34,290 bases of DNA from a virus. Below the pieces are notes generated by a model that was given only the letters and a program-made list of their open reading frames with translations, was not told where the DNA came from and made no database searches. The stretch lies in IMG/VR virus record IMGVR_UViG_3300045922_000607, positions 1-34,290 of that record; one strand, written 5' to 3'. Positions 1,165-26,500 of the stretch are shown here, piece after piece. Position 1 is the stretch's first letter. Each line of letters starts with the position of its first letter. A program made the position numbers and the translations under genes.

Positions 1165-1313
1165 TGGCGAAGCTGCGCCAGTTGTCACTCTTGTTCAGCC
1201 GCTCGATTGACCGCGGCGCGAGCTCGGACGGAGGCCCCGGTGACTTGTTTAGTACTCACGCTAATCTGCTACAAACGTTAAGACAGTGTTATTACTTTGT
1301 TATTTGAGTTCTG

Positions 1314-1796
1314 CTAGGGCCTCCACAGTGGAGGCCACGGTTGATCATCGTCTTCTACTGCAGTTTGATACTCTAGTCGAGTAGCTGTTAGCCGTCGCTG
1401 AGCTAGATCTAAGTTTCTCTTTGCTCCTGCTAGATCACCAAAGGCCACTAGAGCAGCAGCGATACGCAAGAAAGCTTCAGAGTCAGCTCGGGCTTCACAG
1501 CCCTCGTCTAACACTGTTCGAGTTATAGTGATTGAGCCTAGTATTCCTCCTATGGCTACAGCGCCGTCTCCAACAAAGCAGGATCCTTGAGCGGTCATAG
1601 CTGGAGGCGCTATTGCATCTGGATTTGTTCGAATTGTCTGGCGATTGTTTCCACTCCCGCTCCCTCCTACGATAGCAATCGCTTGAGATCCTGCTGTCGC
1701 ATCTAGAGTCTGGCTTTTAGCTCCTTGAAACCCTGACCAGAAGCTGGCAGCAAGAAAAATCAAGACTGCATACAAGAGTAGACGTTTGCAAGTCAT
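1314..1796 (-). CDS. Secreted phage protein of unknown function
   Basis: The protein has 160 residues. A signal peptide is clear: MTCKRLLLYAVLIFLAASFW followed by a likely cleavage near Ala26-Lys27. The mature part contains TNPDAIAPPAMTAQGSC, a Gly-rich stretch and DEGCEARADSEAF, then a helical region and a Pro/Trp-rich tail (PWPPLWRP). The pattern 'NPDA-x-PPA, C, Gly-rich, D-x-(G/N)C, Leu/Ala-rich helix' resembles small exported proteins common in Gram-negative phages, whose role is unknown. The ATG at 1794-1796 has AGAAGGA 7 bp upstream. It lies downstream of the tail spike, separated by a terminator-like hairpin. Confidence 0.7.
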   Translation of the reverse strand: MTCKRLLLYAVLIFLAASFWSGFQGAKSQTLDATAGSQAIAIVGGSGSGNNRQTIRTNPDAIAPPAMTAQGSCFVGDGAVAIGGILGSITITRTVLDEGCEARADSEAFLRIAAALVAFGDLAGAKRNLDLAQRRLTATRLEYQTAVEDDDQPWPPLWRP

Positions 1797-1930
1797 TCGG
1801 GTTTCCTTCTACAATCTGTGCTAGTTGTGTTTATTCTTGCTGAATTGATTAATGGAAAGCATCATCATAGCTGTAGTTAAGCTAATCCAGCAAAAAAGAG
1901 CTTAAGTATCGGTACAGAACCAACATAGTG

Positions 1931-1966
1931 AAACGATAGCCTTAGAGAGATAAGGCTATCGTTTTA
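1931..1966. terminator. Terminator hairpin downstream of the tail-spike gene
   Basis: The 14-bp arms aaacgatagcctta and taaggctatcgttt enclose a gagaga loop, a perfect long stem 70 bp past the spike stop codon. T-runs flank it on both strands (better on the plus side), so it can act in both directions. A second, weaker plus-strand hairpin (aagcc-tttatt-ggctt followed by T's) sits at about 1980-2000. Confidence 0.6.
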
Positions 1967-2032
1967 GCAGTTCTTAGTTAAGCCTTTATTGGCTTTTTTC
2001 AAAATCTAGCTAAGTAAGATAGTAATTAGAAG

Positions 2033-5000
2033 CTAGATAGTATTCAGGCGCAGCACGGCCACCGCGGCCGAGGCGTTGGAATTTGTTCCGCTTGCGGCGC
2101 TCGCGGCCGCGGTGGCCGCTGGCGTCGCCAGACGCAGCCCGACAAACTGCCCGGCGGTCGGGTTCAGGTCCGTCACCGCGATCAGCGCGTCGCCCGGCGT
2201 CAGCGTCGGGCTTTCGCCGTTGTTCCATGCCGCGGCGACGAGCATCGCGTCGGCTGCGGTAGGCGTCACCGAGACAGAACCGCCGGCCGTGCCCCACGTC
2301 GCGCCGTTCGAGGCGAAAGGCGACGACGCAAGCGACCAGCCCGTTGCCGGCGTCAGCACCGCGAAGGCCATGCGCACCGAGCCCGACCAGTTGTAGCTTA
2401 CGTCGATGCTCGCCGTCCCCGCCGGCAGCGTGACCTGATGGAAGGCGACGCGCACGAAGTCGGTCGCCGAGTGTATGCCGATCAGGCTGACCTGTCCGCC
2501 GGCAAGGGTCAGCGCGCTGCCGATGTTGTTGCCCGAGCCGTCCTTTGGCTGCACGCTGATGCTCGACAGGGTTCGCGAGCTTGCCCCGAGCCGCACCATC
2601 GCCGCCAGAACGACAAGACCCGCCGCAGCCGACATCGTGTCGGCCGTGTGCAGCGCCTTGCTGCCTGTCCCGGTTGCCGGAGAAAAGTAGCTCGACCGCA
2701 ACTCCATCGCCGCGCCGGAGCTCGCGACCGTCACCGCAGCGGACGTCGCCACCGCGCTTGCCTGCCCAAGATGGTCGACCTGCCGCCAATGCGCGTAGTA
2801 GGTTCCCGAGGGGATACCGGTCCGCTCGACGGTGCGCGTTCCGGGCGCAATCATGGCGTCGCCGCTGATGCTTCCCGCCGCCTCGCCGAGGACGCCAATG
2901 GAGCCGACAGCCGGCGGCGTCGCGCTCGTCGTCAGCGACCACGACAGCACGCCGCCCGCCTTGGCGTGCGTGACGCCGATCACAACCTCGCCCACCGCAT
3001 CGCTGACAGCGGTCGGGTCGCTCAGCGTCGGCGTCGCGCGGGTTTCGGCGATCAGCGCCCGCAGCCCCTCCGCGTCGTAGGTCTGCGTCGCGTGGTCGAT
3101 GAGGTCGGGTCTGCTGTGCGCGCCGAACCCCGCCAGCGGGCTGCCGGCCAGCGGTTTGAACGCCTGCATGAACTCGGCGTAGGTGTTGAAGGTCCCGCCC
3201 GTGGCGAAGTCGCCGAAGTTGGGATAGCGGACGAAGTTATCCTCGCACCACGCGGCATAGGCCGCCGGGTTGTTCATCACCGAGCCGGGGCGGTAGTTGT
3301 CGCCGGTGTCCACGCCGCCCGTAGTTGTGCCCGTCCCGATGGACTGCGTGATGTTGCGCGAGATCAGGATTTGCTTCGTCGGGTCGTAGGGGTTGCCGAT
3401 GCTGTCGGGTTGGTCGTTTATGATGATGGCGGAAGAAGACGAGCCGCCCGCCTTGCGAACAAACGCCGGGTCTTTCGGGTCGGGCAGGCAGGTGTTCAGA
3501 GCGATCAGCGCTTCCCAGCCGCGGCTCATCTTGAGCCCGTTTAAACCCGAAACGGACACGACGTTGCCGCAGAACAGCGCGTCTTTCCAGAAGGAGATCG
3601 GGTTAAAATTATCGTGCGTGCCGTTCAACGAACCGTTGTCGGCGCGGTCGCCGCCAGGAGTAAAGCCTACCGACACCATGATGTTGCCGATAACATGCGT
3701 GTCGATGCTGTCTACGTTGCGCACAGCTGAGCCGGGAGGCGCGTTGTTGTCAGGACTGACCGCGCTAGGCGAGTTGCGAACCTGCCACAGGTCCGCGTGC
3801 GCCGTGCTGGCTTGCAGGATCATGCCCGGCGTCTCAATCTCGCCCAGCGCAATCAGCGCATTGACGTTCACCGTCTCGGCGTCGTATTCCAGTTCGATCA
3901 GGTCGCCGCCAAGCCGGTAAATCCACCGGCTGTTGGCTTGCCAGTTGACCCAAGTCTGATAATCGTATTTGAGCTGATTGCGCTGTTTCGGGATGTTTTC
4001 CAGCGCCGCTTCCAGCCCGGCAGGCGCGCTGGGGACGAACAGGAAACCGAAGCGGCCATCGTAGTTGTCAAACTTACCTTGCCACAACGAAACGCCGCCC
4101 GCGGGCAGGGTCAGCACGATACGGCCCTTGCGCAAGTCGGGGCCGGGATTGCCGTTCGGGATGTCGACCCAGTCGTTCGGCCCGCGCTGCGTCGCGTCGG
4201 GACCGTAGAAGCGCACGCTCACGACCTCGGTGCGGCTCCCGATCTTGACGGACTTCTCGAACACGTTGAACAGCACGCGCGAGCCGGTGTGGTCGCCGCC
4301 GCCCTTCATCACGTCCTCGTAGGCGTCGCGGAAAATGCCCCGCTCGATCCGGCAGTTGGGACCGGGGATGTTCACCGCCGCGAAGCAGCCGCCCTCGACG
4401 CGGCACTCGATGTAAGCGCAGTTCGGCCAGGTTTCGTCAAAACGTATGGCGCTGGGCAACAGCTTGCCGTCCTCGGGCGAGGTGATGTCGAGGCCGGTGA
4501 CGGTGCAGCGCGTCAGCGTGACATTCCGCCCGGTGCGCGGCGACGGACAGCCCCAGAACACCGCCTTTTTCGCGCCCTTCATGCTGTTGTTGGGCGAGCA
4601 GAACCCGTTAAGGTCGCGCAGTTCGACGTGCTTCAGCCGGCCGAGGTTGAGTTGCCAGATGCGCGGGCTCGCGCCGTCATGCGGGCGGATCACGATGTCG
4701 CCGTCCGTCTCGGGGTCGCCGGCGTGCAGCGTCACGTTCGGGTCGTCCCAGTCCGGGCGGGACGCCCAGCCCAGCGAGATGGTCGTGTTCGCCAGATTGC
4801 GCGCGAACCCGTAGTCGCCGGTGCGCAAGAGGATGTGGTCGCCGTAGGCGGACGCCTGAAAGGCCGCCTGCATCTCCGCAACGCTGGCGACGGAGCGCGC
4901 GCCGGGGACGCTTGTGATCGCCGCTGGCACATCGCCGAGCGCGGTCGTACAGGTGGCGGTTGCCGCGACTACGGCTTCGTTCGCCTTTCGCACCAGCGCG

Positions 5001-5845
5001 CCACCAACTAACTCGATGCCGGTCGGCAGGCCCGTCGCGCTGATGATGTCCAGTTGACTGCCAGCGAGCGTTGGCCGCCAAGCGCCCGCGCCGCCAAGCG
5101 TCAGCGCGCCGAACGGAGCATTCTGCGTTCCGGCGGCCACGCCGACAGTCGGCGTAGCGGTTCGGTTTGCCTGGACCGGCGAACTATCGCCCACCGAGTT
5201 CCTAAACCGCAGGTTGCTGACAGTCGTCGGCGCGTCGTTTGCTAGGCCGGTGATCAGATAGTTTCCGGCGACAGTCGGCGTCACCGCCCGCTCGATGTCC
5301 GCGCCGCCGTTGATTCTGTATATTAAATGCGTGATGGGAGAGCCGCCAGACAGCGGTTCGGCGGTGATCGACAGCAGCAGTGCGCCACCCGTCACGGGGA
5401 GCGCCGCGTCGGTCAACGCGACGCGGGAATTGGGAATAGCTGACGGGCGGCGCACGCCGGACAGCGTGATTACTTTTGTGTCGCCCCACAGCCCATAACG
5501 GCTGGGCGAGAGCTCGACACCGGTGTCCGGATCTACGATGCGGTTTCGCACAGGCCTTAGGCGAAATCCTAGCGTTGCAAGTGGAGGTAGGGCCGTAATT
5601 AGGCGCGTCTGCACCGCCAGCGGAACTTCTCGCGGCGAGGCGCCAGACACATCAAGTTCAAAGTGGCTCCATTGGCCCAGCGCGTCAGCGGGCGGAGCGG
5701 GCAAGTCCGCCAGGTCGAGGATCGTCAGCATAGCTCGGTCCCACGCCTCCTGGTCCACAATAGACCAGGCGCTTGTAGGTAAGACGCCGGCTCTCGCCGC
5801 GCTGATCGCGCTCAACTTAGTAATTTTAATTCCGACGCCGATCAT
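2033..5845 (-). CDS. Tail spike / tail fibre with parallel beta-helix (polysaccharide lyase-like) domain
   Basis: The protein has 1270 residues. An N-terminal part (1-120), probably the virion-attachment region, is followed by an Ig/FN3-like segment (about 150-240). Then comes SVASVAEMQAAFQASAYGDH leading into ILLRTGDY at about residue 318. This is the entry motif seen in secreted parallel beta-helix lyases (pectate-lyase/chondroitinase-B-like), and it continues through short repeating turns to about residue 850 (LNGFCSPNNSMKG, RCTVTGLDI, YIECRVEGGC, NCRIERGIF). The C-terminal 300 residues look like beta-rich carbohydrate-binding modules. The ATG at 5843-5845 has GAAAGG 8 bp upstream. The gene is G+C-rich and transcribed against the other tail genes, which suggests horizontal exchange of a receptor-degrading module. 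The exact substrate cannot be deduced. Confidence 0.85.
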   Translation of the reverse strand: MIGVGIKITKLSAISAARAGVLPTSAWSIVDQEAWDRAMLTILDLADLPAPPADALGQWSHFELDVSGASPREVPLAVQTRLITALPPLATLGFRLRPVRNRIVDPDTGVELSPSRYGLWGDTKVITLSGVRRPSAIPNSRVALTDAALPVTGGALLLSITAEPLSGGSPITHLIYRINGGADIERAVTPTVAGNYLITGLANDAPTTVSNLRFRNSVGDSSPVQANRTATPTVGVAAGTQNAPFGALTLGGAGAWRPTLAGSQLDIISATGLPTGIELVGGALVRKANEAVVAATATCTTALGDVPAAITSVPGARSVASVAEMQAAFQASAYGDHILLRTGDYGFARNLANTTISLGWASRPDWDDPNVTLHAGDPETDGDIVIRPHDGASPRIWQLNLGRLKHVELRDLNGFCSPNNSMKGAKKAVFWGCPSPRTGRNVTLTRCTVTGLDITSPEDGKLLPSAIRFDETWPNCAYIECRVEGGCFAAVNIPGPNCRIERGIFRDAYEDVMKGGGDHTGSRVLFNVFEKSVKIGSRTEVVSVRFYGPDATQRGPNDWVDIPNGNPGPDLRKGRIVLTLPAGGVSLWQGKFDNYDGRFGFLFVPSAPAGLEAALENIPKQRNQLKYDYQTWVNWQANSRWIYRLGGDLIELEYDAETVNVNALIALGEIETPGMILQASTAHADLWQVRNSPSAVSPDNNAPPGSAVRNVDSIDTHVIGNIMVSVGFTPGGDRADNGSLNGTHDNFNPISFWKDALFCGNVVSVSGLNGLKMSRGWEALIALNTCLPDPKDPAFVRKAGGSSSSAIIINDQPDSIGNPYDPTKQILISRNITQSIGTGTTTGGVDTGDNYRPGSVMNNPAAYAAWCEDNFVRYPNFGDFATGGTFNTYAEFMQAFKPLAGSPLAGFGAHSRPDLIDHATQTYDAEGLRALIAETRATPTLSDPTAVSDAVGEVVIGVTHAKAGGVLSWSLTTSATPPAVGSIGVLGEAAGSISGDAMIAPGTRTVERTGIPSGTYYAHWRQVDHLGQASAVATSAAVTVASSGAAMELRSSYFSPATGTGSKALHTADTMSAAAGLVVLAAMVRLGASSRTLSSISVQPKDGSGNNIGSALTLAGGQVSLIGIHSATDFVRVAFHQVTLPAGTASIDVSYNWSGSVRMAFAVLTPATGWSLASSPFASNGATWGTAGGSVSVTPTAADAMLVAAAWNNGESPTLTPGDALIAVTDLNPTAGQFVGLRLATPAATAAASAASGTNSNASAAVAVLRLNTI
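3877..3932. repeat. Internal spike segment duplicated upstream of the gene
   Basis: This segment encodes RWIYRLGGDLIELEYDAE on the minus strand inside the spike. It aligns with 5859-5914 with six mismatches, three of which change residues (G/V, E/K, D/N). Confidence 0.85.
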
Positions 5846-5931
5846 TGCACACGCCTTTCAGCGTTGTATTCTAGTTTGATCAGGTCGCCGACGAGCCGGT
5901 AAATCCACCGGCTGACTCTGATTTTTATCAT
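5842..5931 (-). CDS. 29-residue leader ORF overlapping the tail-spike start (duplicated spike fragment)
   Basis: The ATG at 5929-5931, with AAAGG 7 bp upstream, encodes MIKIRVSRWIYRLVGDLIKL plus EYNAERRVQ. Its TGA overlaps the spike ATG (ATGA), a coupling arrangement. The body closely matches an internal spike segment (SRWIYRLGGDLIELEYDAE). The DNA at 5859-5914 and 3877-3932 agrees at 50 of 56 positions. It is either a translational-coupling leader created by partial duplication or a relic of an earlier spike gene end left by module exchange. Confidence 0.5.
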   Translation of the reverse strand: MIKIRVSRWIYRLVGDLIKLEYNAERRVQ

Positions 5932-8533: not shown

Positions 8534-8583
8534 GGTGAGAACCTGTCTCTCCTTTATAGATACCTATAAATTCTCTCTTTCAA
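8534..8583 (-). promoter_or_regulatory. Leftward promoter P3 with start-site palindrome
   Basis: On the minus strand TTGAAA (plus 8578-8583) is followed by a 19-bp spacer and TATAAA (8553-8558). An imperfect palindrome GGAGAGA-n5-TCTCACC (8534-8552) directly abuts the -10 and covers the expected start. The same layout and spacing occur at 17814-17862 and 18257-18305, so one regulator may control all three. Confidence 0.45.
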
Positions 8584-9492: not shown

Positions 9493-11037
9493 ATGCACGA
9501 GGCGCAAGCTACTGGAAAGGGAAAGGCAGTATCTCAGGGCTCGCCTCAGTACCTTTCAATGCTGCCGATCTGGAAAAAGTGTCGAGCAGTGCTAGAGGGA
9601 GAGCAAGCAGTCAAAGATCATGATCAATGGCTAGACACCGTGACCTTTGAAAACCTACTCATCCCTTTTTCTCCAACTATGACTCAAAAGCAATATCATT
9701 TTTATAAGGCTGAAGCTGAACTACCAGGTCTGGCTTCTCAGTACGCTAGGATCTTAAACGCTGGTTTGCTTCGTAAGGCTCCATCTATCTCCTTTCTTTC
9801 TGACAAGGTTACTGACGAGATGAAAGACTGGGTGACAAATGACTTTTGCTCTAATAAGGATTCTATTCACACTTATTTGTCTATGGTAGTCGAAGAAGAA
9901 CTTCAGACCTCTGCTGGTTGGACCTACGTAGATCTTCCAAACGCTGTAGAAGGGTATGAAGAGGAATATTTCCCCTACCCGGTGTTTCACAGGGCTGAAA
10001 ACGTTATCAACTACTACCTTGGCAAACATCCTAAAACTTGCAAAAACGTTCTGCTTCGTTTTGTCACTAGGTACTTTGTTGATGTCTTAGAAACCAATCA
10101 ATGGCATCCTGATCGAGTAGAAGAAGTCAGAGACCACTACCTCGACGAAGAAGGATACCTCGTTGTAGATGTCTACCGAGGAAAACGAGCCAGTAGCACG
10201 CTTAAGATATCGCAAGGATCAATTAAGAATGAATTCAACGAAGAGCTTACAGAATCTTTTGACCTTAAAGAAACTTACAGACCTTTAAAGCACGGAAAAC
10301 GTTTTGACTTCATCCCGGCTTTCCCTAACAACGGTTGGTATTCTTATCGTGACCCGACTCTTTTACCTATAGTTCTTCGAGAGATACACTTGTATAACAA
10401 GATGTCTCGAAGAAATCACTTAATGTACGGGGCAGCCACCTTCACTCCTTATATCACTGGCCCTATGGACGAAGACGCTTTCTCTCAGATCGTAAACTCA
10501 GGACTAGGGGCCTGGTTGCATTTACCCTCGTCAGATAATGCGTTAAAAGTATTAGAAACTCCTACTTCTGCTCTTTCTTCTATGGAAGAGTCTATTCGTA
10601 GCACTGTTGAAGATCTTCATCGTATGGGTATCAGGATTTTGAGTCCTGAGGGAGGTGAGTCAGGCATAGCTTTAGAAATTAGAAATGCTTCTCAGACAGT
10701 TCAGCTGTCTTCAATCAATACTAACATATCTAAGACTATGTCGAAGATAATTACTCTGATGCTGAATTGGAAGTACGATAAGCTTCAGCTGAAAGAGTCG
10801 GAAGTTCAGTTTCAGATGTCAACAGACTTTAACCCTTCACCGATTGGTCAAGAGTGGCTACGTCTTATTACTCATTGGTACGAGTCTCGCCACATCTCTA
10901 GATCAACGTTTATACGTATACTTCAGCAGAACGATATTTTACCTGCAGACCATAACGACGAACTAGAGCTTCAAGAGATTCAAAAAAGTCCTTTAGCAGG
11001 AATTGATTCTAATAATGTCGTACTAGAGGATTTATGA
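9493..11037 (+). CDS. Portal protein (DUF4055-type head-tail connector)
   Basis: The protein has 514 residues, a normal portal length. Features I associate with the DUF4055 portal family are QYLSMLPIWKKCRAVLEGE near the N-terminus, FSPTMTQKQYHFYKAEAELPG at about 57-77, and a C-terminal helical clip with IGQEWLRLITHWYESRHISR. The dodecameric portal forms the DNA channel of the capsid and binds the terminase, MuF protein and connectors. AAGGA lies 8 bp before the ATG. It precedes the MuF gene as in SPP1- and Mu-type heads, with three genes between them. The terminase is not in the window. Confidence 0.82.
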   Translation: MHEAQATGKGKAVSQGSPQYLSMLPIWKKCRAVLEGEQAVKDHDQWLDTVTFENLLIPFSPTMTQKQYHFYKAEAELPGLASQYARILNAGLLRKAPSISFLSDKVTDEMKDWVTNDFCSNKDSIHTYLSMVVEEELQTSAGWTYVDLPNAVEGYEEEYFPYPVFHRAENVINYYLGKHPKTCKNVLLRFVTRYFVDVLETNQWHPDRVEEVRDHYLDEEGYLVVDVYRGKRASSTLKISQGSIKNEFNEELTESFDLKETYRPLKHGKRFDFIPAFPNNGWYSYRDPTLLPIVLREIHLYNKMSRRNHLMYGAATFTPYITGPMDEDAFSQIVNSGLGAWLHLPSSDNALKVLETPTSALSSMEESIRSTVEDLHRMGIRILSPEGGESGIALEIRNASQTVQLSSINTNISKTMSKIITLMLNWKYDKLQLKESEVQFQMSTDFNPSPIGQEWLRLITHWYESRHISRSTFIRILQQNDILPADHNDELELQEIQKSPLAGIDSNNVVLEDL

Positions 11038-12066: not shown

Positions 12067-13086
12067 ATGCAAAAAAAAGATTTAATTCATTCTTTTGCTA
12101 AAAAGTATAACTTAGACCCATTGGATCTAGAAGCTGTCATCGAAGTCGAAAGCGGTGGCAAACTCTACGCTTTTGATCCAACCGGCATTGTAGACCCTAG
12201 ACCTCTGATTCTCTTCGAGTATCATGTTTTCTACCGAGCCATTAAGGATCCTTCGATTAAAGAACTAGCAGTCTGTAAAAAGCTAGCCTCTAAGCGTTGG
12301 GGCCAGTTTCCCTATCCTAAAACTCAATTAGAGCGCTATAAGCTCTTAGAGGAAGCCAGCCAACTGGACTACGAGGCCGCCCACGCCGCTTGCTCGTGGG
12401 GTCTTGGTCAGGTACTAGGAGAGAGTTACAGTTTTCTAGGTTACTCTAAACCCTCCGACCTAGCTAAGCGGACCTGCAAAGGGCTCGAGGGTCAACTAGA
12501 AGTCTTCTTCAGGTTCATTCTGAGCAAACCAGGCTGTTTAGAGGCGCTGAAAGCTGGGGATTTCAAACGTTTTTTCAGACTCTACAACGGCCCAGGAAAA
12601 GTAGACGAGTACGCTAGGCGTTTTGAGGCTGCTAAGCTTAGGCTAGGAGGCGACCGCTCTTTCGTGACCCTTCGGTTGGGCTCCAGTGGCCCAGAGGTCA
12701 AAAGACTCCAAGAAAGTCTAGGAGAGAACCCGGACGGCTTTTTCGGGCCACGGACCGATCTTGCTGTGAAGCGGTTTCAGACTGAAAATGGACTAGTGGC
12801 TGACGGGGTAGTCGGAGTCGCTACCTGGAAGCGGTTGCAAGAGATAGCTAATCTCTTACCGCCTAGAGTGCCTACTGCGGCGGCTGAGAGGGCTGAGAAA
12901 GTCCGCCCTGTTGCGGATAGCCTTGCTCTAACTGTGGCTACTACCTCGACTACCGCCATAGTGAGCAATCCTGCTACAGCAAGAGAGTACTCTGAAACCC
13001 TTGGTATCCCAGTGCTTGCAGTAGTAGGTCTAGCTGTAGTCTTGTTAATCTTGTTGCCCAGACTAGTTCGTTACGTTTCTAACTAA
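12067..13086 (+). CDS. N-acetylmuramidase endolysin with PG-binding domain and C-terminal membrane anchor
   Basis: The protein has 339 residues. An N-acetylmuramidase (DUF3380-type) domain at about 5-190 shows the expected VIEVESGG (candidate catalytic Glu28), LILFEYHVFYR and AACSWGLGQVLGESY motifs. A peptidoglycan-binding domain follows (about 199-257, LRLGSSGPEVKRLQ and FFGPRTDLAVKRFQ). After a Pro/Ala/Thr linker there is a C-terminal membrane helix (about 313-333, IPVLAVVGLAVVLLILLPRL), which is unusual for endolysins. It degrades murein by cleaving glycan strands. TAGGAGAA precedes the ATG. It lies directly upstream of the MuF-polymerase gene, so a virion-associated hydrolase helping DNA or protein entry is an alternative to simple lysis. 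Confidence 0.83.
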   Translation: MQKKDLIHSFAKKYNLDPLDLEAVIEVESGGKLYAFDPTGIVDPRPLILFEYHVFYRAIKDPSIKELAVCKKLASKRWGQFPYPKTQLERYKLLEEASQLDYEAAHAACSWGLGQVLGESYSFLGYSKPSDLAKRTCKGLEGQLEVFFRFILSKPGCLEALKAGDFKRFFRLYNGPGKVDEYARRFEAAKLRLGGDRSFVTLRLGSSGPEVKRLQESLGENPDGFFGPRTDLAVKRFQTENGLVADGVVGVATWKRLQEIANLLPPRVPTAAAERAEKVRPVADSLALTVATTSTTAIVSNPATAREYSETLGIPVLAVVGLAVVLLILLPRLVRYVSN

Positions 13087-13100
13087 GGAAGAGTTCAACT

Positions 13101-16100
13101 ATGGGAGTAGCCAATAAGGAACTCCGTGATCGAATCGTTGCTCACCTTGTAGACACCCGTTTCTTTGAGGAAGAAGCCGATATCTATCTAGCCAGAGGGA
13201 TTAGTCGCCACAAAGAGCGGCTAGTCAAGCTTCTTGCTCAGGATCTCAAGGCTGACATCAAGCCCGAGGTCCGTCGAGCCGTTGCTGAACTTCACTCTAT
13301 TGGTAGGAATGCCGTTGAAGATTACGTAGGGGCAGAGGCAGATTTTCAGTCTAATAACTTAGCCAGAACAGTAGGGAGTTTTTACGACGTCAAACGCCCT
13401 TCTAAGGCTGACTTGACAAAACGGGTTTTATCAGCGCCAGTTCAGAATGCCTCGAACTTTTTAAAAGCTTTTGAGGCTATTGGCGAAAATGAAATTCTTC
13501 GCGTTCAAGACGTTATCAAGCGAGGCCTCCTTAACGGTACTGCTAAGAAGCAGCTACTAGAGGACGTGATTAAAACGACAGGAATCACTCAGACTCAGGC
13601 CGAGACTCTTCTTAGAACTACCATTACTCAAACCCAGGTTCTTGTGACCGACGAAGTAGTAGAACAGAATCGTAAGATCATAAAGGGTTACGAGTTTACT
13701 GCAGTGCTAGACAACAGGACTTCTTCTCTTTGTGGACGACTAGATGGCAAGGTCTTTCCTCTGGATGATAAACGCTACTTACCGCCGCTACATTGGAACT
13801 GTCGGTCTAGCTTGATTCCTGTTCTAAAGTCTAAAAAGGAACTTCTTGAAGAAGGCTACGACGGCGAGGTAGACCTAGAGGAGCTAGAGCAGCTAGATCC
13901 AGAGTACTTAGACGGAGAACCGCCGATTCGGGAAACCTACGAGCAGTGGTTGCTAAACCAGCCTATAGAAACCAAGTTACGACTGCTAGGCAGTGAAGAA
14001 GCCGTAGCGCTGTTTGAAGCCGGTTCGGCTCCACTCAGTTCTTTTGTGACTCCTAGAGGAAAAGCTTTCTCTATCGGAGTACTTCGCAAACTAGACAATT
14101 TTCGCACTATACTGTTTCCGGTCTTTAGTCGGCCTAACCTACCTGAGGTTTCTGTATCGGTCACTAAGCCCTACGATCTTATCAGGTCTTCCGCTGCTCA
14201 AGAGCAACTACGTTTGTTGTTGATAAACGACTCTCTAGACACGCGCCAGAGTTTATCGCTGATAGACTACCGTGGTACAACGCTTGCTGGTAAGCGGTCA
14301 GTGCGAGAACGAGCTAATAACGTCTTTGACGAACGCAATGTTTCTTTCGACCCCTTCACAGGAGAAGCTAGAAGCACTCTTTACTATGATCCTGATTTTC
14401 AGGTTTATCAAGAACGGTTAGACTTTTTAGAGGCTTCTAAGCTACTAACCAGTGAACAAAAAGCTTTTATCAAGCAGTTTTCAGAATCACTAGAAGAACA
14501 ACTTTCAGTAAATCAGCAGACAGCCGTAGTAGAATCCTTGCGAGTAACCTTTGAACGATACAACAAGAAAAAAGAACCCTGGGATAACTTTGCTAACGTA
14601 CTCAGAGCTGAGAACAACTACGCTGTCACTAACGTGTCTAGGATTCTAGACCGACGGTCTAGGGCTCGGTCAAACCTTTTTGGAAGCTACAGTTCTGATC
14701 CCGACGTTGCTCAGGTTCAGATTGCTGGACGTTGGAGAACGTTTGATGATCTTTCTGAAGACTTGCTTAAGAATCAAAACTATATAGACAACTGGCGTAA
14801 GAACTACGGTGAAGCCTTAGCGGCTAAGTTGATTCTGACCGGACGAGTGCCGTTGCGTACTATACTGTTTGAACCGTTTAAAAAGCCTGAAAATTGGAGT
14901 AAAAAACTTGATAATTTTCTTAAAAAGAATAACACTATTTACAAGTGGATTCGAGAGATTAATAATTCAAAAGACCTTAGATTCTGGGAACCCTCCCGGT
15001 GGATTCAAGATGGAAAAGAGCAGATTCGTAAAATCTTAGACTACGAGGTTGACATACTAACTTCCGCTGAAGAGTATGCAAAAAATCTTTTAGACCAACC
15101 GCTTAAGTACGGGGCTCAAGGCTTGGTTACAAACCCGAAAGCCATAAACTTGATTACTAATGTTATCAAAACTGTAGCTGACGGCAAAACTACTGACTAC
15201 GACGCTCTAGCTATCAACATCGGGAAGTATTTTCACAAAAATTGGTATCCAGAGTACTTTCCTGGACTTCGAAAGCCAACCTTAGAAGAACTTCATTCTG
15301 ACGGCTCTAGGCTCTTAGAGGCTTTTCGAGCCAACGGGTTGCTTAAGGTTCAGTCTCGTGGTGTAACTCGGCGGTCTGTAATAGATTTAGACACCGGGCG
15401 TCCCTCTGGTGCCTTTAAGGATACTGTCTCTAGAGAGGTCATTATATTAGATCCTGAGATGCTAAAGCTGCAGACAGCAATTCGAGAAGTGAACATTGCT
15501 CAGCGTATTGGTATTGTAAGAGACCGAGACAGACTTTACGTTAGACCAGGCGCAAAGGTTTACTTCGATGCTCGGGGTAAGAAGACCGGTAAGTCTATTA
15601 TCACTCAGTCCGCTGCTGCTGACTTTGATGAAGATCAAATTGATCGTGATTTTGCTAACATGCTTAATCACACAATGAACGTCAAATACGAAGTCGATTC
15701 TGACTTTGCTGACTTCATGGATAACTTAGTCCGCTTTAGAGATCCTCGGGGTGAAACTAAGAAGTACGACGAGTTGAACTCCTTTCGTCACTTAATTCTA
15801 GAGCGTGGTGACGAAGGGTTTGGTATGATGCAGACTATAAAGTGGCATCGTCAGCGGGGTAAACCCTTTAGCGTACTTGCCCGAATTGACGCTCGGGGCC
15901 GTGTTTACTACGAAGGCTACTTGACCCCTACTGGTGGAGAAGTTGCAAGACCCTTTTTAAACTCTTCAAAGGCTTTACCAATGAACGCCTCTTCTCTGAA
16001 AGAGCTCAAGATTCAAATAGGAGCCTCCCTAGGACCAGCAACAGAAGCCTTAACAACAGACGGTAGACTAGCTATCTTTGAAAGAAACAAGAAAGCTTTG

Positions 16101-17534
16101 ATAGAGTTAGGTGAAACGATACTCAGTCCTACTCAACGAGATCGCCGACTTCGGTTTTTCTTAGAGCATCCTATAGTAAGGTCTTTAGATGGAGAGGAAG
16201 TACCAAAGTTAGCTCGGATGGCTCTAGAGCTTGCTAGATTGAACCGTCATAGTGGAGGTAACATCGACGACTTAGAAAAGGTTAAAACCTTTAAAACTAA
16301 GCTTATGATGGAGAATGATGCCTCGGCTTCAGGAGCTCAGATCATAGCCTTAGCCACTAGAGACCGTACTTTAGCTCTAGCCTCTAACGTACTACCTACA
16401 ACTAAAAAGAACCGGCTCTACGACACCATCGCTATGGACACGATGGCTGATCCGGCGTTTCATTCTTTAGAGGCCTTCAAAGACCTTGGGTTGACTTGGG
16501 AAGAACTTGCCAAGGGAGCTAAACAAGCTAACATGGTAGCTTTTTACGGTGCAGGAGCCACAGGACAGGCCAGCGCTGTTGAAGCTAAACTAGCTTCGGT
16601 TCTTTCGAAAAAAGGCATTCAGGTCATTACACGTCCAGAGGTGTTAGCCTTTAACAAAGAGCTAGACAAAGCTATCAAGCTAGCTAAGAAGCTAGACGCA
16701 GAAAATACAGTACAAGACCTGTCGACGTTAAAGAAGGAGGTAGGGAAGATACTCAGCAACCGAGAGGTTGATATTGCAGATCGTATTCTCCAGTATGCAG
16801 AGGAAGTTCACCCTAAGTCAGCGGATTTCATCCGTAGACTGACTAATCAGCGGTCTGGACTAGTAACAGCAAAAGACTTCCGTGCCTTAGCCTCTATCAT
16901 GTCTAAACACTTAGAGTCTCGAGCTCCTATTACTGGGGAGTACATGAAGTTCTGGAAAGAGGCTGCAGACCGCTTTGTTCGAGAAACTGGAAAAGTAGAC
17001 CTACCCTTTCGTACTTTTGACAGGAAGAAACTAACTCTGAAGTTCAGACCTAAGGAGCAGTTTGAAGTCCGATTCAGAGACCCCCAGTCAGGCCGCTACG
17101 TTCGTAACATTTATCAGTCTACTGAGACCGATGGAAAGCTGAAGGGCAAGGTGTCTATTGGTTGGGCTCGAACAGGTTTTGGAGTGTCAATGAACCATGG
17201 TAACGACGCCACTATAGTTCGCCAGTTTCATCTCTGGGGTAGAGAGAATTCTATAGACACTGCTACCATTCACGACGCTTTCTTTACTCACATCACTCAG
17301 GCTGAAAAATCTAAAGAAGCACTTAGGAAAATCTATGCTGAGGCCTTAAACGGTGATGTAGTAAAAGAAACTTTAAAGGAGTTTCGTAGGTCCGGGCTTT
17401 CTTACGATAGCTATCAAGAGCTGCTTAATCGAGCTGTAGAACGGGGCCTCGTTGATAATCCTGACGGTATTCGAAAAGAAGAAGTGCTCAGGCCTTTAAG
17501 ACCAGGAGAAGACCTCTACGGTATCGGACCTTAA
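13101..17534 (+). CDS. MuF head protein fused to a single-subunit (T7/N4-like) RNA polymerase
   Basis: The protein has 1477 residues. The N-terminal MuF domain (about 100-245) has VLDNRTSSLCGRLDGKVF (202-219) and LPPLHWNCRS (227-236), the signature of Mu gpF/SPP1 gp7 head proteins bound at the portal. About 450 unrecognised residues follow. The C-terminal half (about 850-1460) is a single-subunit RNA polymerase. It has DARGRVYYEGYLTPTGGEVA (DxxGR, D930-R934; T7 D421-R425). Motif A is ENDASASGAQ with D1073 (T7 D537). Motif B is K1141...Y1149-G1150, with the same K-to-Y spacing of 8 as T7 K631-Y639. Motif C is TIHDAFFTH with H1391 and D1392 (T7 H811/D812). The T7 Arg627 position is Ala1137 here, with Lys next to it. 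A role as a packaged, ejected polymerase is inference. Confidence 0.88.
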   Translation: MGVANKELRDRIVAHLVDTRFFEEEADIYLARGISRHKERLVKLLAQDLKADIKPEVRRAVAELHSIGRNAVEDYVGAEADFQSNNLARTVGSFYDVKRPSKADLTKRVLSAPVQNASNFLKAFEAIGENEILRVQDVIKRGLLNGTAKKQLLEDVIKTTGITQTQAETLLRTTITQTQVLVTDEVVEQNRKIIKGYEFTAVLDNRTSSLCGRLDGKVFPLDDKRYLPPLHWNCRSSLIPVLKSKKELLEEGYDGEVDLEELEQLDPEYLDGEPPIRETYEQWLLNQPIETKLRLLGSEEAVALFEAGSAPLSSFVTPRGKAFSIGVLRKLDNFRTILFPVFSRPNLPEVSVSVTKPYDLIRSSAAQEQLRLLLINDSLDTRQSLSLIDYRGTTLAGKRSVRERANNVFDERNVSFDPFTGEARSTLYYDPDFQVYQERLDFLEASKLLTSEQKAFIKQFSESLEEQLSVNQQTAVVESLRVTFERYNKKKEPWDNFANVLRAENNYAVTNVSRILDRRSRARSNLFGSYSSDPDVAQVQIAGRWRTFDDLSEDLLKNQNYIDNWRKNYGEALAAKLILTGRVPLRTILFEPFKKPENWSKKLDNFLKKNNTIYKWIREINNSKDLRFWEPSRWIQDGKEQIRKILDYEVDILTSAEEYAKNLLDQPLKYGAQGLVTNPKAINLITNVIKTVADGKTTDYDALAINIGKYFHKNWYPEYFPGLRKPTLEELHSDGSRLLEAFRANGLLKVQSRGVTRRSVIDLDTGRPSGAFKDTVSREVIILDPEMLKLQTAIREVNIAQRIGIVRDRDRLYVRPGAKVYFDARGKKTGKSIITQSAAADFDEDQIDRDFANMLNHTMNVKYEVDSDFADFMDNLVRFRDPRGETKKYDELNSFRHLILERGDEGFGMMQTIKWHRQRGKPFSVLARIDARGRVYYEGYLTPTGGEVARPFLNSSKALPMNASSLKELKIQIGASLGPATEALTTDGRLAIFERNKKALIELGETILSPTQRDRRLRFFLEHPIVRSLDGEEVPKLARMALELARLNRHSGGNIDDLEKVKTFKTKLMMENDASASGAQIIALATRDRTLALASNVLPTTKKNRLYDTIAMDTMADPAFHSLEAFKDLGLTWEELAKGAKQANMVAFYGAGATGQASAVEAKLASVLSKKGIQVITRPEVLAFNKELDKAIKLAKKLDAENTVQDLSTLKKEVGKILSNREVDIADRILQYAEEVHPKSADFIRRLTNQRSGLVTAKDFRALASIMSKHLESRAPITGEYMKFWKEAADRFVRETGKVDLPFRTFDRKKLTLKFRPKEQFEVRFRDPQSGRYVRNIYQSTETDGKLKGKVSIGWARTGFGVSMNHGNDATIVRQFHLWGRENSIDTATIHDAFFTHITQAEKSKEALRKIYAEALNGDVVKETLKEFRRSGLSYDSYQELLNRAVERGLVDNPDGIRKEEVLRPLRPGEDLYGIGP
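16717..16736 (+). promoter_or_regulatory. Recurrent 20-bp element inside the polymerase coding sequence
   Basis: acctgtcgacgttaaagaag is identical over 20 bases to the core of the elements at 8597 and 8722. Here it is read as codons for DLSTLKKE within the polymerase gene, in the rightward direction, about 1.7 kb upstream of the scaffold and capsid genes. A 20-base exact match in unrelated coding context is very unlikely by chance. Confidence 0.5.
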
Positions 17535-17596: not shown

Positions 17597-17794
17597 TTAT
17601 TCGAAATACAACTCCTTCTCGGGTTCCAGCTCGAACTGGGACTCATCGTGATCAGGCAACTCGCAAGCCGTTACCGCAAAGCTCTCATGGTTTTTGAATA
17701 GAGACTGTGCAACCTTGAGAGCTTTTTCGATACCTTCATCTTCGATGAAGATCACGGGTTTACCCTTAGTGGGTTGTATGCAGTAGCTCTTCAT
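17597..17794 (-). CDS. Moron-like 65-residue acidic protein
   Basis: The ATG at 17792-17794 follows AGAAGGA by 7 bp. The product starts MKSYCIQPTKGKPVIFIEDE, has a helix-forming middle (GIEKALKVAQSLFKNHESF) and a very acidic tail. No family is recognised; the shape suggests a small alpha/beta fold. It is transcribed against the structural operon with its own promoter, start-site palindrome and terminator, the definition of a moron unit. Morons often alter host behaviour during infection or lysogeny (known), but nothing in this sequence tells which function applies. Confidence 0.65.
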   Translation of the reverse strand: MKSYCIQPTKGKPVIFIEDEGIEKALKVAQSLFKNHESFAVTACELPDHDESQFELEPEKELYFE

Positions 17795-17812
17795 TATTGC
17801 TTCCTTCTCTCA

Positions 17813-17862
17813 TGGAAGAACCATTTCTTCCATTATAGATACATAGTTTTTCTAATTCTCAA
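17813..17862 (-). promoter_or_regulatory. Promoter P1 with operator-like palindrome
   Basis: On the minus strand TTGAGA (plus 17857-17862), a 19-bp spacer and TATAAT (17832-17837) are followed at once by the perfect palindrome GGAAGAA-n4-TTCTTCC (17814-17831), which would cover the start site. A 41-bp block (17813-17853) is identical to 18256-18296. The position suggests a repressor operator. Confidence 0.65.
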
Positions 17863-17946
17863 GGTCTGTCTTTTACTTTTCTTTTTATTGAAGTTTTAGT
17901 CTACTCTAGCTTTAGACTTAGACTTAAGTCTGAAAAAAAAAAATTA

Positions 17947-17968
17947 AAAGAGGCCCGTAGGCCTCTTT
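17947..17968 (-). terminator. Intrinsic terminator of moron gene 2
   Basis: A 9-bp stem aaagaggcc / ggcctcttt has the same UACG loop as the terminator at 17569. A T-run follows on the minus strand (plus A-run 17933-17943). It serves the 18008-18238 gene. Confidence 0.8.
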
Positions 17969-18007
17969 CCTTTCTCTTTTTAGCAGGCTGTTAACTTGCC
18001 TAGAACG

Positions 18008-18238
18008 TCACTTAGAACCGTTCCAGAGTCGGTAGAACCGAATTCCAGCCATGACTCCCAAGAAGAGGGAGATCATGTAGACGGCGTTTAAACCGACTAA
18101 CATCGACATAGGACTCATGGAGCCTCCGGCCAGCTTCATGAGCTCCAGGACGAGGAGGAACGACAGGGACAAGACTGAAGTAGCGAAGAACGCCACTCCG
18201 CCCGCGAGGGCAATAGTAAACAGCCAGCGGTCATTCAT
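18008..18238 (-). CDS. Moron-like small membrane protein (76 residues, two helices)
   Basis: I choose the ATG at 18236-18238 because GGAGG lies 5 bp upstream; longer frames run through the promoter. Two hydrophobic segments, WLFTIALAGGVAFFATSVLS with its continuation (about 5-33) and MLVGLNAVYMISLFLGVMAG (about 46-65), are joined by a Gly/Ser/Met loop. The C-terminus (RFYRLWNGSK) is basic. Size and topology fit a small two-helix inner-membrane protein. A holin or superinfection-exclusion role is possible but unproven. It shares promoter, palindrome and terminator design with the neighbouring 65-residue gene, so both were probably acquired or copied as expression cassettes. Confidence 0.65.
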   Translation of the reverse strand: MNDRWLFTIALAGGVAFFATSVLSLSFLLVLELMKLAGGSMSPMSMLVGLNAVYMISLFLGVMAGIRFYRLWNGSK

Positions 18239-18255: not shown

Positions 18256-18305
18256 TGGAAGAACCATTTCTTCCATTATAGATACATAGTTTTTCTCGCT
18301 TTCTA
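18256..18305 (-). promoter_or_regulatory. Promoter P2 with operator-like palindrome
   Basis: TATAAT (plus 18275-18280) abuts the palindrome GGAAGAA-n4-TTCTTCC (18257-18274). The 41-bp block 18256-18296 is identical to 17813-17853. The -35 candidate TAGAAA at 19 bp is weaker than in P1. Confidence 0.6.
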
Positions 18306-18361: not shown

Positions 18362-18394
18362 CAACAAAGAGCTGTGCTCGAAAGGATCTACACA

Positions 18395-19078
18395 ATGTCT
18401 AATGAAACCACAGACGAAGACCGGTTCTCTGACAAGAACAGCAACGGCGGTGCCAGTGCCTATTCTAGTGTTGAGGACAAAGACTTCGATGCTATTGTCG
18501 CTGCGCGAGTTGCTGAAGAGCTTGCTAAAGAAAAAGCAGCCTTTAAGGCCAAGCAAGATGCTCTCGACTCTCGCTTGAAAGAGGAAACCCGTAAGCGGGT
18601 AGAGCTCGAAGAAAAGCTCCGCAAAGAGCAACTAGAGACTCTAGAAAAGGAAGGCAAGCACAAAGAAGTTCTTGAACTAAAGCTTGCAGAAGTAACCGAA
18701 CGACTTCGAATCGCCGAAGAGCGCAACCTAGAGTACACTCGTAACGCCCAAGTTTCTGCGTTAATCGCCGACTTCGACTTTAGAACCCCTCGCGCTAAAG
18801 AAATTGCTACTCGTATGATCATCGACGAGCTAGTAGCAGGCGAGGATGGTGTTTGGACACATCGTTCTGGTGCTCCGCTTAAGGATTTTGTGACAAAGTT
18901 TCAGTCAGACGAAGAGAACTCTTTCCTCTTTAAGCCTAAGGACAATTCTGGTAGCGGTGCAGACACCCCTGCCTCAGGAAGTCCTAGGACTAAACCGCTT
19001 AAAAAGCTCTCAGAGATGACCAGCTTAGAAGCCTTTGAAGCTGCTAAGCGTGGTCTGCTTCCTAACCAGAGAAGGTAA
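18395..19078 (+). CDS. Capsid scaffolding protein
   Basis: I choose the ATG at 18395 because AAAGGA lies 8 bp upstream; an in-frame GTG at 18374 lacks a site. The 227-residue product is highly charged. It has an acidic, disordered N-terminus (SNETTDEDRF), a long coiled coil (about 30-115, with EELAKEKAAFKAKQDALDSR), a compact segment and a low-complexity, basic C-terminus (GSPRTKPLKKLSE). This architecture, directly before the major capsid gene, is typical of scaffolds that guide procapsid assembly and are then lost. No protease triad is apparent. Confidence 0.78.
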   Translation: MSNETTDEDRFSDKNSNGGASAYSSVEDKDFDAIVAARVAEELAKEKAAFKAKQDALDSRLKEETRKRVELEEKLRKEQLETLEKEGKHKEVLELKLAEVTERLRIAEERNLEYTRNAQVSALIADFDFRTPRAKEIATRMIIDELVAGEDGVWTHRSGAPLKDFVTKFQSDEENSFLFKPKDNSGSGADTPASGSPRTKPLKKLSEMTSLEAFEAAKRGLLPNQRR

Positions 19079-19084
19079 CAAACT

Positions 19085-20197
19085 ATGCCTGTTTCTCCTG
19101 TAATTACTACCGTAGACTTTCAGATTCTTGATACCGCAATCTCAGCCTACGCTGATGAGGCCTACACCTCGGCTCGAAAGCTGAACGACACCGGTATCGT
19201 CGGTACTGACAACCAGATTGACGCCTCAGGCGAAGGCTACGCGGGTCAGTTTCGGTGGTTTAAGACCATGAACCCCGTTATCAACACTCCTGACCTTGAC
19301 GATGCTACTCCCGGAACCTTTACCGGTGTTGCAACTGATGTTGCTAGCTTTATCAAAGCTGTTCGTTCCTACGGCGCTTCTCAAGTCAACCTCCAGTCGC
19401 TTATTACCCGAGCAGACGGCCTAGCTAAGGTAGCTCGAGACTTTGTTGAGCACCGTGCTCAAGAAGAGTCAGACGCCATCTTGGCTGTTCTAAAGGGAGT
19501 TGCAGCGGCTGAAGCGGCTCGAGCCTCAACCTCGGGTATTTTAAACTTCGACACTGACCCTGATTCTGCTGGGGTTGGCTTCCTAGTTGACATCAACGCT
19601 AACAGCGAGTTTGGTGCTGCTGCTACTTCAGCAGCTACCACCCGAAAGCTTTTTGACGCTTCGGCCTCAGGTGCTGCTCGGGGTGAACGACTGTTCCGAG
19701 CCATCGGAATGGCCTGGAAGGATCTCGAAGCGCCTTACTACTACATGATCACTTCGCCTTCTGACTACGCTGAACTACGTGCCGCAAACCTTATCGACGA
19801 CACTACAGTCACCGAGGGTAACCTTGAATTCCAGACTATCTTCAACGGCAAGTTCCGTCTGATTCTGACTCGTCTCAACACTGGCTCTCTAGCTAGCTCA
19901 AGTAACGTTAACAACTACTCTACTAAGACAACCTTCGTGATTCGCCCTGGTACGTTGGCTTGGCAAGGACTAAACATTGACATGCCTGTTGAGACTGACC
20001 GCGATCCTCGTTCCTTTAAAGGCTCGGGCTCTTCGCAGATTTGGTACCGCTGGGGTTACGTTGTTCATCCTCGTGGTTACGACTGGAGCGGTCCGGTCAA
20101 CGGCTTTGCTACCCACTCGCTTTACGGCACTGCATCCTCGTGGACTCGAAAGATGAAGGCGCTGAATCTTGGTATTTTGCCTATTCTTCATGGTTAA
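19085..20197 (+). CDS. Major capsid protein (likely HK97 fold)
   Basis: The protein has 370 residues. The assignment rests on position after the scaffold gene, length, a codon usage richer in C-ending codons than its neighbours (as in highly expressed genes), and composition. It starts MPVSPVITTVDFQILDTAIS, has Ala/Asp-rich helical regions (VARDFVEHRAQEESDAILAV) and a C-terminal beta-rich domain (KTTFVIRPGTLAWQGLNIDM, HPRGYDWSG). The motif WYRWGYVVHPRGYDWSG near the end resembles Mu-type and DUF2184-like coat proteins, which place the same kind of 'HPxGY' text there. AGAAGG precedes the ATG. It forms the icosahedral shell. Confidence 0.78.
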   Translation: MPVSPVITTVDFQILDTAISAYADEAYTSARKLNDTGIVGTDNQIDASGEGYAGQFRWFKTMNPVINTPDLDDATPGTFTGVATDVASFIKAVRSYGASQVNLQSLITRADGLAKVARDFVEHRAQEESDAILAVLKGVAAAEAARASTSGILNFDTDPDSAGVGFLVDINANSEFGAAATSAATTRKLFDASASGAARGERLFRAIGMAWKDLEAPYYYMITSPSDYAELRAANLIDDTTVTEGNLEFQTIFNGKFRLILTRLNTGSLASSSNVNNYSTKTTFVIRPGTLAWQGLNIDMPVETDRDPRSFKGSGSSQIWYRWGYVVHPRGYDWSGPVNGFATHSLYGTASSWTRKMKALNLGILPILHG

Positions 20198-23565: not shown

Positions 23566-26500
23566 ATGGCTGTAAAAATTGAAATTCAGTCTGATACCAC
23601 ACAGGCTGAACGGGCTGTTTCTAAACTACGTGGCACACTAGCTTCTGTTTCTGAAGTTGCTGCTAATAGCGCAAAAAGCATAGACAATATTTCGTCTAGT
23701 CGTATAAATATCAATACTGACTTAGCTCTGGCTTCTTTAGAAAGAGTTGAAGACTCTTTGAGGTCTATAGAAAAAAATTCTAAAAGAGCAGCTAGCAGAT
23801 TACGTGACAACATTAAATTCATTGTCGATTCCTTTTCGCTACTCCCTGTACGCACGGGTGCAACCTTTGCTGTTAGAACAGCAGCAACCTTTGAGACCTT
23901 ATTGTCTCGACTCAAGATTGCTACAGGATCAGCCGAGGCTGCAGGAGCGGCTTTTGCTGAAATCAAGGTCTTGGCTGCTCAGACTCCCTTTGCGGTTAGT
24001 CAGATTACAGACGGCTACTCTCGCCTGATTCAGTCAGGCTCAGCACTGGTAGATTCTCAAGAAGAAATAATTCGAGGTTTGAAAGGCATTGCTAACGCTG
24101 TAGCCTCGGTAGGTGGAAATGACGCTACCTTTGCAGACCTTACTTCTGCTCTTTCAAAGATTGCTTCTCAAGGTAAAGTAACCTTAGAAAAATTAGAGCC
24201 TATTGTCAGTTCTGGTATCTCTCTTAGAGCCATTGCTTCAAAGATCGGTTTTGATGGAGCAGACGGCATGGAGCGGTTTTTTGAGGCTATTACCGCTGGT
24301 GAAATCAAGTTTGAACGTTTTTATCAAGGCTTTTTAGAGTATGTAGAGCTAGACCTTGGTGGGGCAGCAGCTGATCAGGTAAATACCTTAAACGGTGCTT
24401 TTTCTAACTTTAATGATGCTATAGCTGAACTAGGAGACGCTGTAGTAAGACAGTCTGGTCTTTCCGGTATCATCGTTAGAGCTATTCAGAGTGTAAATAG
24501 CTTTATAAACAACCTAGCTGCTAAAGCGGGCCCTGCTGTAGCCGAGCTTATTACAGAATTAGTTATTAGCTACTCTCAACTCCGACGAGTCCTTTCAAAC
24601 TCTGAGACAGCTTTAGATAACTTTGTTTACAGCGTTCTTTTAGCTTCTCAAATCACTTTTCAGCCTATTATCGATCAGTTAAACCTCTTAAAAGATAAGT
24701 TTAAAGAGCTTCGGGCAGAAGCTGATTACACTGGAAGAACTTTCTTAGATGCTTTTGCTGGCTCTATTAGTCAAGACGCAGACAAGTTTGATCAAGAGTT
24801 AGAAAAGTTCAAGAAACAATTTAAAGAACTTTATCAAACTTTAGAGTATCAAAACAACCGAATAAGAGAACTAAATCTGACTTCTGTTGTTGAATCATTT
24901 AGAGAAGCTGTAGAAAATTTTGTAGCAGTCTTTGTAGATTTTCCTAATAATTTTGAAAGAGCGGAAGCAGCTTACCTAAGTTTTTCTAGTACTCTGTCTA
25001 AGTCTGTTTTCTTATTTGAAGAACTGAAAGATTCTATAAATCAAACTTTAGAAACGTTTAAAAATTTTTCTTTAAGTATACCTTTTCTTCCAAGGTTGTT
25101 ATCAGCAGTTCGGTTTGCTGTATTACCGATTTTAGAACTATTCAGTTCTTCATCTGAAGTCAGTTTGTTTGAACAGTATAAAAACACAGTAAAACTGTTT
25201 TTCTCTGATTTGTTTTCCGGTACACAGTTAGAGCAGTTTACTAAGCTAGGCGATAACCTGGCCAGAGTTTTACTCGCTATTGTTCTTCCTGTTCAAAATT
25301 TTAATGAGCTACTAGGGTCAGAAGGCAATAAGGCTGGCGCAGCTGTTTCTGCGTTCCTGCTCGAAATAAGAAAAATCAGCAAGATCATTCTTCCAGATTT
25401 CTTGAATCCCTTAACTAATACAACAGATATAAAAGAATTTAAGTTTGATTACATTGAAAAGCTTTCTGAATTCTTTGAATACTTACTATCAATACTCAGT
25501 AAAATAGAATTTTTGAAACCAGTCTTAGGACTTTTTGCATCGTTAAATGAGTATATAGCGTTTCTGATAGAAAAACTAATAGATGGCAAGGAACTACTAG
25601 ATATTATTAATTCTAAACTAGAGTCTTTTGTTAAATCAATCATAGATATCAAAAAATCAAGTGATTTTAATTTTATCTTTGGTGGGTTTAATCAAAGAGA
25701 TTTAAATAATTTCATTGTTGCTGTTAACAACCTATTCGGAGCAATAATAGCTGGTCCAGAAGAATTTCTTTCTTCGCAAGGAACACTTTTAGAAAAAATA
25801 GAGTACAGGTTAAAATTTTTTGTAAAAAGTGTTCTTGATTTGTTTGAGTCAGCTAAGAAATCAATAATCGAATTTTTCAACTCGATAAAAACTTATCTTT
25901 CTGATTTCTCTGTTTTTGAACCGCTGTCATTAGCAATTTCTTCAAATAAAGAAATACTTGGAGAATCCAACTCTGATTCTTTATTAGATCTATTAAATTC
26001 AATTCGTTCTTTCTTAAAAGACTTCTATGATGCTTTGATTTTTCCAGACGATGCTAACCTAGTAAACATTGCAGCAGTTTATATAGATGCTTTTTCTAAA
26101 GAAATTTCTAGATTTAAAATTTTTCTAAAGAAAGAATACGATAGTCTTTCTGATTATCTTTCAGAACTCTACAATACTTTGTTTGTAGAAGATACTATGC
26201 AGAAGCCAAAGTTGGCTGGATTTTATGCTTTTGAAATTCCAGACATAAATCCACCAGACACTTTGCGTCAGCGTGTACTTAATGCTTGGTATAGTTTTAG
26301 AAACAGTTTACGAAGTCTTTATAACAGTGTAATAGAGTTCTTCTACGGAAAAGATCAGTCTATCATAGAAGATCTTGTAAAAAGTGAAAAACCTACTGGT
26401 TTTCAGAGGTTAGTCAAAAACATCGCTAAGGCTTGGGATGGTGTTGTAGCAACCTTTCGTTACATAGCAGAGAATAGCAGCGCTATAGGGTCTTATGTTC

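Follow-up and report, generated by a model that had tools for sequence, protein, structure and literature searches.

A MuF head protein fused to a T7-type RNA polymerase in long-tailed phages: a candidate virion-packaged enzyme for early transcription

Introduction

In phage SPP1, the portal carries a few copies of gp7, the prototype of the MuF proteins, into the procapsid (PMC6316719), and fusions to MuF have been proposed to bring enzymes into the cell upon infection (PMC5512222, PMC6316719). A linear IMG/VR virus record of 34,290 bp (hereafter the window, meaning the whole stretch of DNA that was analyzed) encodes a protein in which a MuF domain is followed by an RNA polymerase domain, raising the question of what a polymerase would do on a head protein. 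The reading we favor, with a probability of about 0.84 and on the basis of sequence analysis, is that the T7-type polymerase is packaged, enters the cell with the DNA, reads a class of promoters that we call class E and drives early transcription, including that of a second polymerase gene, whose product would then make the virion genes.

The Fusion Gene and Its Neighborhood

The fusion gene lies at 13101-17534 on the plus strand and encodes 1,477 aa. A preliminary description of this DNA had claimed a single frame of 1477 codons carrying MuF and polymerase signatures. The frame is indeed open throughout, and all quoted residues are in place, namely RTSSLCGRLDG (aa 206-216), LPPLHWNCRS (aa 227-236), DARGR (aa 930-934), D1073 followed by ASASG, K1141 with Y1149-G1150, and H1391-D1392. 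Both domain assignments score above the curated Pfam cut-offs, with PHROGs in agreement. The MuF (Phage_Mu_F) domain spans aa 135-239 (13503-13817, plus strand; PF04233, E 2.9e-13, 51 bits against a cut-off of 29.6), within a longer region (aa 70-333) that matches the head morphogenesis family PHROG 241 (E 2.6e-47). The RNA_pol domain PF00940 covers aa 1057-1431 (E 7.4e-10, 38.7 bits against a cut-off of 22), and the protein also matches an RNA polymerase in PHROGs (E 5.6e-22). These are the only two Pfam domains in the fusion.

The gene is located between the portal gene (9493-11037; PHROG 145, E 3.5e-46) and the genes of the head scaffolding protein (18374-19078; PHROG 206, E 5.1e-15) and the major capsid protein (19085-20197; PHROG 247, E 7.9e-24), all on the plus strand, an order that is the same in roseophage DSS3_VP1. 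Downstream follow the genes of a tail tape measure protein of 2,035 aa (23566-29673, plus strand; PF20155, E 2.1e-24) and of a tail tip or central fiber J-like protein, which is cut by the end of the window (30814-34290, plus strand; PHROG 31, E 1.8e-52). Since a tape measure, a distal tail protein and fiber J are encoded, the phage is long-tailed, as had been proposed. An N-acetylmuramidase with a peptidoglycan-binding domain (12067-13086, plus strand; PF11860, E 4.1e-36, and PF01471) is encoded within the head module, directly 5' of the fusion, and its best PHROG match is filed under head and packaging.

Distribution of the Fusion

Two scans of IMG/VR for relatives of the fusion returned at least 495 and at least 558 matching stretches. 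The search for the same fusion in metagenomes, already suggested in the preliminary description, revealed MuF and polymerase domains within one frame in 153 of the 160 loci inspected, the remaining seven being cut by the contig end. Full-length homologues (46% identity) are found in the Naomviridae roseophages DSS3_VP1 and DSS3_PM1, whose records name them only minor head protein-like or head morphogenesis protein and do not recognize the polymerase. The DSS3_VP1 protein (QGH74596) is about 1,463 aa long. EBPR siphovirus 1 encodes another full-length homologue. The family falls into two clades, with the window and the DSS3 phages in clade 1 and the EBPR-like sequences in clade 2. In all 13 records in which this was tested, no MuF protein other than the fusion is encoded. 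The scan found no relatives in contigs of cellular genomes. A large and apparently undescribed group of long-tailed phages carries a T7-type polymerase on a head protein.

Chance motifs and a chimeric assembly are both ruled out because hundreds of contigs bear the same fusion; with two isolated and sequenced phages also encoding it, we consider the probability that the gene is an assembly or frame artifact to be practically nil. An odd base composition does occur in the window, yet it is confined to the first 6 kb, and the fusion lies outside of it. This left-hand region (1-5900) has a GC content of 60-68% (48% at 1-2 kb) versus about 43% elsewhere, and contains a leucine-rich-repeat protein (114-1100, minus strand), a repeated AGGGCCGGCAGCGCAGTTAG element and a minus-strand open reading frame of 1,270 aa without a family match.

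Across the 160 loci, the fusion is split only by introns or insertions. Group I introns (Rfam RF00028, 66-92 bits in six loci) are inserted into clade-2 fusion genes at the position of polymerase motif B; the loci concerned are L003 (22933-23159), L094, L100, L108, L122, L148, and L158. EBPR siphovirus 1 has an RF00028 match of 40.5 bits, which is below the gathering score, together with an HNH gene, and further clade-2 copies are broken into up to five pieces. Some clade-2 fusions (L140, 9005-14338, and similar ones) are enlarged to 1,778 aa in total by about 230 extra in-frame residues in the fingers, in which Pfam detects no intein domain. In loci L055 and L067, about 130 additional residues separate the MuF domain from the polymerase.

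The Polymerase Part

The region assigned to the polymerase by an AlphaFold model, Foldseek and hhalign comprises aa 321-1477 (14061-17531, plus strand). Searching the PDB sequences by plain phmmer with the window protein gave nothing useful. A profile of 55 relatives had T7 RNA polymerase as its best match among PDB sequences, with a modest E-value (0.0011), and aligning this profile with T7 RNA polymerase in hhalign gave a probability of 96% and an E-value of 3.4e-9. For aa 321-1477, AlphaFold gave a model with a mean pLDDT of 80.6 and a pTM of 0.75. The 50 matches listed by Foldseek against PDB are T7 and mitochondrial RNA polymerases, T7 RNA polymerase being the best (E 2.6e-19), with a global TM of about 0.5 by target length. 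The T7 relationship claimed from motif order is therefore upheld by both profile and fold comparison; judged by sequence and model, the C-terminal region of the fusion belongs to the T7 superfamily and has a predicted T7-like fold.

The catalytic motifs are found in the corresponding places. The DxxGR motif (DARGR, aa 930-934; 15888-15902) is aligned by hhalign to DWRGRVY of T7 RNA polymerase, the putative catalytic D1073 of motif A (16317-16319) to T7 D537, and H1391-D1392 of motif C (17271-17276) to T7 H811-D812. Motif B in the fingers (K1141-x7-Y1149-G1150; 16521-16550) was left unaligned to T7 by hhalign and is assigned by its spacing and a predicted helix. In the model, motif A closes a strand, H1391-D1392 lies between two strands, and a helix at 813-827 (model numbering) holds K821 (K1141 of the full protein), with Y829 (Y1149) just past it. 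Divergence from T7 RNA polymerase is considerable (12-15% identity in structural alignments), which could speak for a polymerase domain that is inactive and has a structural role only. Yet the six core catalytic residues (D1073, K1141, Y1149, G1150, H1391, and D1392) show no variation among 55 diverse homologues, down to 31% identity with the window protein, and we regard loss of activity as highly improbable.

Comparison with the N4 mini-vRNAP had also been proposed. Here the sequence fits T7-type polymerases and not the N4 enzyme: hhalign finds no match between mini-vRNAP and the fusion family (E 0.32, probability 0.2%), and a recognizable relationship to N4 vRNAP was rejected on that ground. 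The fusion protein has only a weak match to PHROG 2166 (E 3.3e-5) and weaker structural matches to annotated virion RNA polymerases. The N4-type arrangement, with a metallopeptidase fused into a giant podoviral protein, is not what this phage encodes, as Pfam finds MuF and RNA_pol only and the phage has a tape measure.

A Second Polymerase and the Late Promoter Motif

Phage DSS3_VP1 encodes a second RNA polymerase, a conventional T7-like enzyme of 732 aa at 42.4-44.6 kb. Such a gene is also present in five of eight clade-1 IMG/VR records (33-77 kb), in each of the 13 clade-2 records measuring 66-82 kb (with interruptions in some of these genes), and in 32 of 34 records that were chosen by the early promoter motif alone (see below). 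The 34-kb window contains no second polymerase gene. There is no close relationship between the fusion polymerase and the second polymerase.

DSS3_VP1 has 13 strong sites of a motif that we call class L (ATAGGKTRCGTTAAAGARGGGG), all on one strand. These sites precede replication and virion genes, with portal and MuF-polymerase among them, and none is found at 29.4-45.9 kb, the region that holds the second polymerase gene. The core of the motif is similar to SP6 and T7 promoters. No class L motif was found in the window. Some class L motifs of DSS3_VP1 (e.g., at positions 2333 and 45926) are followed by GGGG...CCCC sequences, which could form hairpins at the 5' end of the RNA.

The location of the fusion gene in a late head operon, in DSS3_VP1 behind class L promoters, would also be expected of a polymerase that is produced late and works within the cell to transcribe late or replication genes, its fusion to MuF being a passive evolutionary accident. 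Against this, late genes would have a conventional polymerase and a promoter class of their own, no other MuF protein accompanies the fusion, and in the 160 loci nothing but introns or insertions splits it. We consider such a late role very unlikely.

The Early Promoter Motif

The class E motif consists of about 32 bp at fixed spacing. Its clade-1 form is AAAAAGTGAGAAAA-N5-GYATCTATAATGA and its clade-2 form is GCGGAAAA-N4-GTATCTTATATGA, with the same spacing as in clade 1, so that two forms of the motif track the two clades of the fusion. In DSS3_VP1, where class E sites lie at 35.8, 36.2 and 67.8 kb, the motif opens the early module, just past a terminator-like site 3' of the tape measure gene. 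Most clade-1 phages for which early sequence is available have two to four copies. In clade 2, 11 of 12 early regions together hold 22 exact sites and the twelfth has a variant, and 1.04 Mb of loci surrounding the fusion gene contain none. Class E sites are on the strand of the second polymerase gene in 59 of 59 cases and within 10 kb upstream of it in 50 of 59, mostly at 2-10 kb. Hairpins at the 5' end of the predicted transcripts are frequent, with 66% and 50% of the sites below -3 kcal/mol versus 4% and 7% of shuffles.

Searching IMG/VR with the motif first returned 86 and 100 stretches, and 34 long records among them were tested. The fusion is encoded in 28 of these; the other six also have no portal match, and are therefore fragments or too divergent at that place. 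Motif matches in two further, very large records without the fusion (G056 and G057) were judged to be chance, the sites having no A-tract. Pelagibacter phage Kolga has a related MuF protein of 633 aa without a polymerase and a single T7-like RNA polymerase, and the class E motif is absent from its genome.

In the window, the best class E site is at 18273-18304 on the minus strand. It scores 30.5 bits with a PWM built without the window (maximum of 100 shuffles, 13.2) and 28.4 bits with an independent PWM (maximum of 20 shuffles, 5.3). A second minus-strand site at 17830-17861 scores 14.3 and 11.0 bits, respectively, and has the same 5' hairpin as the first (GGAAGAA-ATGG-TTCTTCC). Read from the sequence, each site is followed by one small minus-strand gene, of 76 aa (18008-18238) and 65 aa (17597-17794), respectively, and then by a hairpin with a T-run. 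The stretch 17597-18238 thus appears as two single-gene units, each with a class E promoter and a terminator, on the strand opposite to the head genes between which they lie. As a counterpoint to the proposed function, these two best sites of the window precede small genes between head genes and not a polymerase gene. A weak class E-like site at 8551-8582 (minus strand; 12.2 bits, within the shuffle range with its maximum of 13.2) is located upstream of small minus-strand open reading frames, from 8375 down to about 6139.

Candidate Readers of the Early Promoters

Class E co-occurs with the second polymerase as well as with the fusion, and co-occurrence alone therefore cannot name the polymerase that reads it. 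TATAAT is the sigma70 -10 consensus, and since the clade-1 motif contains it, the host RNA polymerase could use this form. The host enzyme might then read class E and make the second polymerase, with the packaged MuF-polymerase serving otherwise, for example by pulling the genome in by transcription, as T7 RNA polymerase does when it transcribes the entering T7 genome. The absence of the fusion from some phages with a T7-like RNA polymerase, such as Kolga, would suit this explanation too. However, the motif conserves about 32 bp with constant spacing and lacks TTGACA at -35, clade 2 has TTATAT in place of TATAAT, the two motif forms track the two fusion clades, Kolga has no class E motif, and sigma70-like matches in the early region of DSS3_VP1 occur at chance level only. 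Host transcription of class E consequently strikes us as unlikely, although it retains a small share of the probability.

We prefer reading of class E by the MuF-polymerase. This function is supported by the presence of the second polymerase and by a class E motif that co-occurs with the fusion, sits upstream of the second polymerase gene, differs by clade and is absent from Kolga. In the proposed sequence of events, the MuF part would bind the portal and put a few polymerase copies inside the procapsid, and upon ejection the MuF-polymerase would enter the cell together with the DNA. There, as a presumably active enzyme, it would recognize class E promoters and transcribe the early genes, including that of the second T7-like polymerase. 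The latter would read class L promoters and transcribe the replication and virion genes, portal and MuF-polymerase included, thereby closing the loop. More tentatively, a large, unrecognized division of siphoviruses may rely at the start of infection on a T7-type polymerase that is anchored to the portal and has a promoter class of its own. This enzyme may even transcribe while still attached to the end of the DNA that is coming in, so that early transcription and genome entry would be coupled; we regard this wider picture as possible rather than probable.

If packaging is confirmed, the few phage polymerases that are packaged in virions would gain a member with a new type of carrier, a head protein, and with a T7-type enzyme whose sequence is not recognizably N4-like. 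The group that encodes it comprises hundreds of phages from metagenomes and two that have been cultivated. Some of these long-tailed phages have modified DNA, and a packaged polymerase would explain how transcription could begin without help from the host enzyme. The predicted promoters are testable with DSS3_VP1 on Ruegeria pomeroyi DSS-3, and the fusion polymerase and class E form a candidate orthogonal polymerase-promoter pair.

Comparison With Known Phage Systems

The open-access literature that was searched contains no description of a MuF-polymerase fusion, so the novelty claimed in the preliminary description stands for this particular fusion. It does not extend to the principle of a structural protein bearing a virion polymerase, which has a precedent in Thermus phage P23-45 (PMC10770324). 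In this siphovirus, gp96 is a virion RNA polymerase fused to the tape measure, which transcribes the gene of a second, non-virion RNA polymerase from AT-rich early promoters, and these promoters are missing in relatives without the fusion (PMC10770324). P23-45 is the nearest precedent, with the N4 virion polymerase also among the closest systems. P23-45 and the phages described here have in common a virion RNA polymerase on a structural protein (presumably packaged in our case), a second RNA polymerase and two promoter classes, of which the early one is rich in AT and missing from relatives that lack the fusion. They differ in that the P23-45 enzyme is of the two-barrel (cellular) type and on the tape measure, whereas the enzyme described here belongs to the T7 superfamily and is on a MuF head protein.

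N4 gp50 is a T7-superfamily virion polymerase that is injected to transcribe early genes, as has been shown for N4 and would apply here, and in both systems a second T7-like polymerase comes later. In contrast, N4 is a podovirus, and its mini-vRNAP has no hhalign match to the MuF-polymerase family. The promoters of N4 vRNAP are hairpins, whereas class E is a linear element of 32 bp with the hairpin downstream of the motif. The RNA polymerases of T7 and other Autographiviridae share the catalytic motifs and the predicted fold, but are made in the cell, are not packaged, have no MuF domain and are about 880 aa long versus about 1,150 aa here. Finally, the MuF effector fusions (polymorphic MuF toxins, with Mu gpF and SPP1 gp7 as related MuF proteins) resemble our fusion in that MuF is a portal-linked carrier of a C-terminal enzyme for which delivery has been proposed (PMC5512222, PMC6316719). 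The cargos named in these two papers are toxins and other effectors, and we did not find a polymerase described as MuF cargo.
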